Shown in pieces: positions 22,203-47,513 of a DNA stretch of 64,000 nucleotides (positions within the stretch are counted from its first letter, which is position 1; every line of letters starts with the position of its first letter). The position numbers were made by a program, and so were the translations under genes. Origin of the DNA: Halodesulfurarchaeum formicicum (GTDB lineage Archaea > Halobacteriota > Halobacteria > Halobacteriales > Halobacteriaceae). The DNA lies in contig NZ_CP016804.1 of NCBI RefSeq assembly GCF_001886955.1, positions 1,612,001-1,676,000 on the forward strand, written 5' to 3'. The notes under the pieces were generated by a model. It saw nothing but the letters and a program-made list of their open reading frames with translations, searched no databases and was not told the DNA's origin.

Positions 22203-22471
22203 TCCGACGGAACCTGAGCGGACCCGAGGGGACTCCCGCGAGCGGCGAGGGCGACCAGCGGGAGCCTTCGAAATGGACGAACGGTGAGCGGAGCGACGTG
22301 AGTCAGCGAGCGGGAGGTTGTCAGGAGGTGAGCGGAGCGAACGAACTGACAGAATTTGAACCACGCCCGAGAACCTGCGTTTCGCAGAACCTCGGTCTCA
22401 TTCAAATCCCTTGCTCCGTTCACTCTGCCGAGCGCGGTGCCTTCCGGCACACGCGCTGAGTTCCGTAGAAG

Positions 22472-22566
22472 CGGACCCGAGGGGATTTGAACCACGGTCG
22501 GAGCAAAGCTCCTCCCTGATTCAAATCCCCGTCCGCTTCGCTCCTCACCGTCGTTCGTCGCAGAAG
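22472..22566 (-). repeat. tRNA-tail palindromic unit at tRNA-Arg (95 nt)
   Basis: Directly 3' of tRNA-Arg (minus strand). It reads: CTTCTGCGACGAACG, a hairpin flank GGTGAGGAGCGAAGCGG, an inverted T-arm GGATTTGAA, a hairpin GGAGC-TTT-GCTCC, then a copy of the tRNA-Arg T-arm and acceptor tail. A 47-nt part (22482-22528) is identical to 47457-47503 in the tRNA-Lys array. Confidence 0.88.
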
Positions 22567-22641
22567 CGGACCCGAGGGGATTTGAACCCCTGACATCTTG
22601 GTCCGGAACCAAGTACTCTATCCAAACTGAGCTACGGGCCC
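22567..22641 (-). tRNA. tRNA-Arg (anticodon CCG)
   Basis: A 75-nt cloverleaf: acceptor GGGCCCG pairs with CGGGTCC (one G-U), discriminator G; D-arm GCTC...GAGT; anticodon stem CTTGG/CCAAG with loop TTCCGGA giving anticodon CCG (CGG codon, Arg); T-arm GGGGTTCAAATCCCC. No intron and no encoded CCA. A TATA-like GTTAAACG lies about 30 nt upstream on the minus strand (22667-22676). Repeat units follow at the 3' side. Confidence 0.95.
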
Positions 22642-29280: not shown

Positions 29281-29620
29281 CTGGGTTGCGGTTCGTAAGC
29301 CCCCTTCTGTTTCGACCCGACATTCGGCTACGCGTCCGCGCAGACTGCCGGACTACCATTCACGCGGACTTGCACCGGCGAGGGGTGGCCGTTCCATCGC
29401 TGCTTCGCCGTCGTCCCTCGGTGGGGTCGCTCCAGGGCTTTTTCGGGAATCCTTTTTCGCCCCGGATCCGCACACCTCATCGGTCGAGCGAAGCCGTGTC
29501 GTTTCTGTTCCATGGCCCGACGGTCTCCCGTCCCGGGCGTGTGCCCGATCGCCTGTCCGGCGGTGGGGGGACTTTCCTCATGCCCACTCGGGGCACGGGG
29601 GTCGGGCGGCCGCTACCCAG
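29281..29620 (-). ncRNA. rnpB: RNase P RNA (archaeal type)
   Basis: About 340 nt on the minus strand with RNase P signatures: CR-I GAGGAAAGTCCCCCC near 29571-29585, CR-II-like ACAGAAACGACAC near 29499-29511, GGTGCAAGTCCGCGTGAATGG near 29355-29375 and the 3' CR-V GACAGAA-type CAGAAGGGGGCTTAC near 29296-29310. The ends form helix P1: CTGGGTAGCGG (5') pairs with CCGCAACCCAG (3') with one mismatch, which sets the limits used here. It processes tRNA 5' ends. Ends are accurate to a few nt. Confidence 0.92.
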
Positions 29621-47076: not shown

Positions 47077-47129
47077 TGGTCGTCGCGGAGGGAAAGGGTT
47101 TAACCGGACAGTCACGACGGTGTAGGTGT

Positions 47130-47203
47130 GGGCCGGTAGCTCAGGTAGGCAGAGCGTCTGGCTTTTAACCAGACGGACGGGGGTTCAAATCCCTCCCGGC
47201 CCG
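47130..47203 (+). tRNA. tRNA-Lys (anticodon TTT)
   Basis: A 74-nt cloverleaf: acceptor GGGCCGG pairs with CCGGCCC, discriminator G; D-arm GCTC...GAGC; anticodon stem TCTGG/CCAGA with loop CTTTTAA giving TTT; T-arm GGGGGTTCAAATCCCTC. No intron, no encoded CCA. TATA-like tttaacc about 30 nt upstream (47099-47105). A tandem array of tail-copy repeats follows. Confidence 0.95.
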
Positions 47204-47513
47204 TGAAATCTCCGAGCGAAGCGAGGAGTACGAACGGCGAGGGATTTGAACTAGAGAAACGCGAGCGGAGCGAGCGTTTCACGTTGTTCAAATCCCTCCC
47301 GGCCCGTGTTTTCCTGCGAACGAAGTGAGCAGAAAACCGGCTGCGGTTTTGAACCCAGGAAACCGAGCGAGCGAATGCGAGCGAGGTTTGCGTTGGTTCA
47401 AATCCCTCCCGGCCCGCTTCTGCGACGAACGTAGGTGAGGAGCGAAGCGGCCAGGAGGATTTGAATCAGGGAGGAGCTTTGCTCCGACCGTGGTTCAAAT
47501 CCCTCCCGGCCCG
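47204..47513 (+). repeat. Tandem tRNA-tail palindromic array (3 units)
   Basis: Three units, 47204-47306 (103 nt), 47307-47416 (110) and 47417-47513 (97). Each has a first hairpin, an inverted T-arm (GGGATTTGAA, TTTTGAAC, GGATTTGAA), a second hairpin, and finally an exact 21-nt copy of the tRNA-Lys tail (T-arm through acceptor) at 47286-47306, 47396-47416 and 47493-47513. The tRNA itself holds the fourth copy (47183-47203). Second hairpins differ in sequence (GAAACGC/GCGTTTC; AAACC/GGTTT; GGAGC/GCTCC) but keep pairing. Confidence 0.92.

Follow-up and report, generated by a model that had tools for sequence, protein, structure and literature searches.

What are the short repeats that follow tRNA-Lys(ttt) in the haloarchaeon Halodesulfurarchaeum formicicum, and why does each carry a copy of the tRNA's own tail? 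The locus lies in a 64,000-nucleotide (nt) stretch of the genome (contig NZ_CP016804.1, positions 1,612,001 to 1,676,000; hereafter the window). A preliminary description of this stretch reported three units of about 100 nt directly 3' of the tRNA, each with an exact 21-nt copy of the tail, and we confirm this arrangement (Table 1). The tail (GTTCAAATCCCTCCCGGCCCG) occurs in four exact copies, the last ending at 47513, with start-to-start spacings of 103, 110 and 97. The stems that had been named (GAAACGC/GCGTTTC, AAACC/GGTTT and GGAGC/GCTCC) were all found in the array. The inverted T-arm reported for every unit is a perfect 9-nt match in units 1 and 3, but degenerate in unit 2 (GGTTTTGAA). 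Two hairpins are present per unit as described, with the correction that they are two different ones: hairpin A lies between the tail (T) and the inverted T-arm (T'), and hairpin B between T' and the next T. The fold of the array has a z-score of -7.5 relative to shuffled sequences, 0 of 100 of which folded as well. We consider the chances about even that the array belongs to an order-wide family of gene-free hairpin cassettes that insert at the T-arm, restore the tRNA and build up arrays.

Table 1. tRNA-tail arrays of the window and one further RNA gene (window coordinates).
Feature	Position	Strand	Detail
tRNA-Lys(ttt)	47129-47204	+	ARAGORN; Rfam boundaries 47130-47203
Tail T, first copy, inside tRNA-Lys(ttt)	47183-47203	+	
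Lys unit 1, 103 nt	47183-47285	+	T 47183-47203, A1 47204-47241, T' 47242-47250, B1 47251-47285
Lys unit 2, 110 nt	47286-47395	+	T 47286-47306, A2 47307-47344, degenerate T' 47345-47353, B2 47354-47395
Lys unit 3, 97 nt	47396-47492	+	T 47396-47416, A3 47417-47456, T' 47457-47465, B3 47466-47492
Fourth exact tail T, distal array end	47493-47513	+	
Degenerate fourth A module	47514 to about 47550	+	cttctgcgacgaacgaacgtggggagcaaggcg, after the last Lys tail
tRNA-Arg(ccg)	22566-22641	-	Second tRNA of the window with the same kind of array
Arg(ccg) unit 1	22472-22565	-	A, T', B and a second exact tail copy (22472-22492)
Arg(ccg) second unit, partly degenerate	22240-22471, approximate limits	-	With a stretch ending GCGGGAGTCCCCTCGGGTCCG before the shared flank ctcaggttccg
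Archaeal RNase P RNA gene	29284-29617	-	Rfam RF00373, 159 bits

The same plan was recovered from 113 units at loci of H. formicicum, of the same genus and of other haloarchaea. The order is T (from the tail of the unit's own tRNA), hairpin A, T', hairpin B, and the units are mostly about 80-170 nt long, non-coding and provided with two hairpins each. T' was found in 105 of the 113, with at most one mismatch in 83%, compared with 0.4% of shuffled units. With few exceptions, its sequence is TTTGAA where the tRNA has TTCAAA, and TTCGAA where the tRNA has TTCGAA. Where the leading T and the next T differ in their core, T' matches the leading one (7/7 informative units), as transfer of a T-A-T'-B piece would predict, and T-A-T'-B is therefore the natural unit. 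The stretch of the A module next to T' can roughly pair with the acceptor part of its own tail, apart from a few missing bases. The sequence at the joint of units is GTTC[A/G]AATCC. Two genomes together have 46 tail copies, of which 36 are exact and 43 resemble their own tRNA more than, or as much as, any other. One of the three exceptional copies, at Leu(gag), was scored against a doubtful ARAGORN call of tRNA-Ser(cga). Calls of this tRNA at two loci (L059 and L110) were judged false: they lie inside array sequence, and the Infernal tRNA lists contain no such genes. Annotation pipelines may misread hairpin arrays as tRNAs.

Pairing within the hairpins is kept while the bases change, as had been suggested for the Lys array. 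We paired hairpin halves with their own partners and with partners swapped in from other modules, using a set thinned for relatedness, although the thinning is crude and relatedness is only partly removed. B halves reach -12.6 kcal/mol with their own partner versus -8.8 when swapped, with 16 of 46 folding better than in any of the 15 swaps tried (about 3 expected). The corresponding values for A halves are -19.1 versus -14.6 kcal/mol and 19 of 71 (about 4 expected). As own halves pair better than swapped ones across modules, and T' tracks T, the structural selection proposed earlier is supported, and the preserved pairing extends far beyond the Lys array. The tRNA-sense strand folds better than its complement (39/46 B and 57/71 A modules with RNA parameters, most of them also with DNA parameters). 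Hairpin tips of the form CGA-NY-GNA-RN-GAG, in which tandem G.A pairs surround a GNA loop, occur in the sense strand of 41 unique modules; no complement has one. Counts of G.T versus A.C mismatches were dropped as a strand test; they are mixed and dominated by shared B types.

These features could indicate a function at the RNA level, in which the T'-B-T and T-A-T' hairpins of the trailer would insulate the tRNA from the extra tails, or set processing or stability, with DNA exchange being incidental. Better folding and the hairpin tips on the tRNA-sense strand, the tracking of T by T', and the location just 3' of tRNAs all agree with such a role. However, DNA energy parameters show the same strand preference, so RNA is not singled out. 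The presence of units per tRNA is also erratic between two species of the same genus, and many tRNAs have no unit; thus, no single tRNA needs an array. We regard a purely RNA-level explanation as unlikely.

How widespread are the arrays? We surveyed the 3' flanks of the tRNA genes of H. formicicum, i.e., the stretches around tRNAs. More than half of the roughly 42 tRNA genes have tail copies or inverted T-arms in this flank, with 1-5 units each. The signature GGATTTGAA-n(14-44)-TTCAAATCC matches 16 sites in the genome and 0 when read backwards, and 15 of the 16 lie at most 700 nt 3' of a tRNA, in regions that together cover 1.4% of the genome (P about 4e-27). A chance origin is excluded, because matches occur in the forward reading and not the backward one and are concentrated 3' of tRNAs. 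The preliminary description had proposed that haloarchaeal genomes be searched for units 3' of tRNA genes. With both T-loop variants allowed, the signature was identified in 156 of the 195 genomes of the order (56/66 genera), and there were no control matches. In the same phylum outside the order, 3 of 241 genomes have 1-2 matches, at least one of these matches being AT-rich and probably due to chance. The arrays are essentially absent from the phylum outside the haloarchaea. A scan of viral sequences for units returned mostly bacterial tRNA-Ser genes and chance matches, along with one true unit. This is a genuine T'-B-T unit near the end of an IMG/VR contig stretch (L172:13864-13909), which may mark where an integrated provirus borders on a tRNA array.

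Between H. formicicum and a genome of the same genus (G002), most tRNAs show arrays of different content. The Lys array has three units in H. formicicum and two, with different B modules, in G002; that of Ser(tga) has five and two, respectively. At Arg(ccg), the site is filled in H. formicicum and empty in G002, where the tail is followed by ctcaggttccg. Of two Glu sites, that of Glu(ctc) carries a unit in G002 alone and that of Glu(ttc) in H. formicicum alone; at each, the flank immediately following the tail is identical in the two genomes. Behind Leu(taa), the displaced original tail is preceded by an additional internal unit whose tail resembles that of Leu(tag). The arrays thus do not keep the same copy number and position in all relatives, the outcome that the preliminary description had named as leaving mobility unsupported.

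At one tRNA the working 3' end has itself been replaced. The tail of tRNA-Arg(tct) is GTTCAAATCCCGTCGTGCCCG in H. formicicum and GTTCGAATCCCACCGTGCCCG in G002 and G006, and the latter, ancestral-looking tail is present twice downstream of the H. formicicum gene. The new tail also ends the tRNA-Arg(tct) of distant haloarchaea. The G49.U65 pair of the H. formicicum tRNA was considered as a fossil of the swap and withdrawn, since the lineages sharing the tail have G49.U65 too.

Modules are also exchanged between arrays. We identified 65 pairs of units at different tRNAs with the same B and an unrelated A, and 14 pairs with the same A and a different B; the two kinds of module assort independently. 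B modules are common to arrays of different tRNAs and genera, and the tails match the local tRNA. For example, T'-B3-T of Lys unit 3 agrees in every letter with a site at tRNA-Arg(ccg) of the window. The B3 module is found exactly in 7 other named species of several genera, in 7/7 cases inside arrays, and there follows five kinds of tRNA (Arg-tct twice, Ser-tga twice, Arg-cct, Gly-gcc and Phe-gaa), each time next to a tail of the tRNA in question. B can be exchanged freely because each of its flanks is a T-arm core shared by nearly all tRNAs, and A stays tRNA-specific because it is bounded by tRNA-specific acceptor sequence. The mobile miniature element first proposed survives in part. Gain and loss with the tRNA restored, and the exchange of the Arg(tct) tail, support it; autonomous movement of each unit as a single piece is conjectural, since A and B assort independently, no enzyme was identified, and recombination without a dedicated mobile element may also account for the changes.

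Other repeats were seen at the same kinds of site. A second class, at Arg-cct, Ala-ggc, Arg-ccg and Ala-cgc (L062, L072, L076 and L107, respectively), copies just the terminal portion of the tail, CGGGA[C/G]TCCC plus the acceptor, and its joint is therefore further 3' than in the hairpin units. In both H. formicicum and G002, cccactttttccgaggggctgc..gcagcccctcgcaaaaacttggggaaaaagaccgctagcggctg recurs in or distal to the arrays behind Gly(tcc), Gly(ccc), Gly(gcc), Leu(taa) and Leu(tag); it is either terminator-like or another repeat family.

The insertion site that we propose for the cassettes is the T-arm core (TTCRAATCC), both in tRNA genes and in tail copies acquired earlier. A cassette T-A-T'-B would bring a full 3' tail on its left and move the former tail one unit downstream; the tRNA would stay whole because the cassette carries this full tail. 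Every tail copy of an array would at some time have served as the functional end of its tRNA, and this would explain the exact match of nearly all copies to that tRNA. T' and the next T would embrace hairpin B to give a folded single-strand site, and this folded strand may be the substrate of a tyrosine recombinase or similar enzyme acting in trans. The 9-nt cores of T and T' would also serve as joints for module exchange, with A pairing next to the acceptor part, so that B could pass freely between tRNAs and A would remain specific to one.

Several results weigh against insertion of this kind. The gains and losses were seen at the level of species, not strains. In tRNA-Arg(tct) of H. formicicum, the 5' T-stem base C50 is also in the donor-like state. 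This points to an exchange that started upstream of the T core or to a later compensatory mutation, and the case was therefore not used to place the crossover. The independent assortment of A and B is also explained by general recombination. The same is true of a hybrid B module at tRNA-Val(gac) of G002 (L089), in which the left half is of one type and the right half of another, and the hairpin is broken; it perhaps arose by deletion between neighbouring units. A dedicated recombinase was not found among the five integrase matches of H. formicicum (the genome also has one Y1 transposase match), none of which adjoins an array at its tRNA. Every near-complete genome of the family has integrases, but their number does not rise with that of arrays (Spearman -0.28, P 0.17). 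A dedicated integrase beside arrays was considered and rejected, as the two found near orphan units belong to large integrated elements that displaced the arrays.

Passive recombination plus RNA-level selection is a serious rival; passive turnover as such is possible, although in our judgement rather improbable. Slippage, unequal crossing-over and gene conversion between short repeats would turn the arrays over, quasi-palindrome template switching would keep T' complementary to T, and T and T' would be mere shared homologies, for which a stretch of 9-21 nt suffices. The Ser(tga) array of H. formicicum, with its nearly exact tandem duplication of a two-unit block, fits this explanation, as do the joints at T and T' between independently assorting modules and the resemblance of the hybrid B to a deletion between two B modules. 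However, passive turnover alone provides no source for A and B sequences that are missing from the related array. It also sits poorly with the clean single-unit gains at Glu(ctc) and Glu(ttc), where the empty genome has no local donor array, with identical B modules across genera at different tRNAs, and with the displacement of the ancestral Arg(tct) tail.

The large integrated elements are found at two tRNAs. In H. formicicum, tRNA-Arg(tcg) and its displaced unit and tail are about 55 kb apart (1166485-1221425; L157 and L071), and an integrase lies at 1220286; the duplicated part belonging to the element itself is only TGCAACGCCC, shorter than the T of a unit. A conserved large element adjoins tRNA-Lys(ctt), at about 34 kb in H. 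formicicum (899157-933654, L064 and L156) and at 1660909-1687184 in G002 (L117 and L160), and in both genomes an integrase adjoins the orphan unit, the T of which is split by a short insert. Integration into the 3' part of a tRNA, with the intact tRNA reconstituted, is standard for archaeal tyrosine recombinases (PMC8371274), and integrated elements of haloarchaea are known to duplicate tRNA 3' parts (PMC7921747, PMC3119063). Each tail copy could accordingly be the attR scar of a decayed provirus or plasmid, given that ordinary large elements do use tRNA-Arg(tcg) and tRNA-Lys(ctt) and have integrases near their far ends. The units resemble such elements in that a duplicated tRNA 3' part flanks the insert and the tRNA is restored. 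At about 100 nt, however, they have no room for an integrase gene, and they form tandem series that include inverted T-arms. Decay should leave varied coding remnants, whereas the units are short, non-coding and doubly hairpinned with a T', and the copy made by the Arg(tcg) element falls short of a unit's T. Intermediates between full elements and 100-nt units at one site were not seen. Scars are the least likely of the readings, and we consider them very improbable.

Have such arrays been described before? Partial tRNAs ("tRNA remnants") directly beside full copies are noted in part of an account of Haloferax gibbonsii LR2-5 (PMC7921747), and are probably the same phenomenon; that part mentions remnants only, without unit anatomy, inverted T-arms, hairpin modules or turnover. 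In the open-licence literature we found no earlier description of the anatomy of tRNA-tail hairpin arrays, of GCGAAGC hairpins or of miniature tRNA-targeted elements in haloarchaea, which is weak evidence of absence. The SMR-A repeats of Haloquadratum are non-coding, about 110 bp long, with inverted repeats, enigmatic mobilisation and insertion into palindromes (PMC3119063). They and the palindrome-associated transposable elements (PATEs) come near the units. SMR-A agrees with them in size, non-coding nature and inverted repeats, but has IS605-type targets and shows no target duplication, tRNA tails or tandem tRNA arrays. Short hairpins on a preferred strand are likewise shared with repetitive extragenic palindromes (REP/RAYT) and IS200/IS605 elements, the mechanism of which, unlike that of the units, lacks tail duplication. 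Mobilisation by a Y1/IS605 enzyme was rejected: seven genomes of the family (G007, G009, G016, G019, G022, G024 and G025) have sites and no Y1_Tnp match, so a Y1 transposase is not required, although enzyme loss is still possible. Miniature inverted-repeat transposable elements share their terminal inverted repeats with a resident transposase element. T and T' of the units are inverted, but both have their source in the tRNA, and we identified no transposon that ends in such repeats. In contrast to the spacers of clustered regularly interspaced short palindromic repeat (CRISPR) arrays, the inserts are shared hairpin modules.

Integron arrays consist of tandem cassettes on a fixed platform, with a boundary hairpin formed by an inverted and a direct core in the folded single strand. 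The units share the tandem cassettes, the boundary hairpin between inverted and direct core, and the fixed platform; unlike integrons, they have no IntI-type integrase beside the array and no open reading frame in the cassette, and the platform is a tRNA. The attC core RYYYAAC/GTTRRRY does not describe their joint, in which position 4 is C, not R. The fold and preferred strand of an integron-type single-strand boundary site are seen in the units, and recombination at it is only predicted. We suggest tentatively, as a more specific version that is probably too specific, an integron-like gene-free system with tRNAs as platforms, in which folded cassettes would be joined at the T core by a putative recombinase, modules would be swapped between species and the working 3' ends of tRNAs would be rewritten.

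The arrays adjoin essential genes in a large share of one archaeal order. If they are built of mobile cassettes, they would be a route for replacing working tRNA ends between species and a counterpart of integrons without genes. Immobile arrays would show strong selection for single-strand structure in tRNA trailers.
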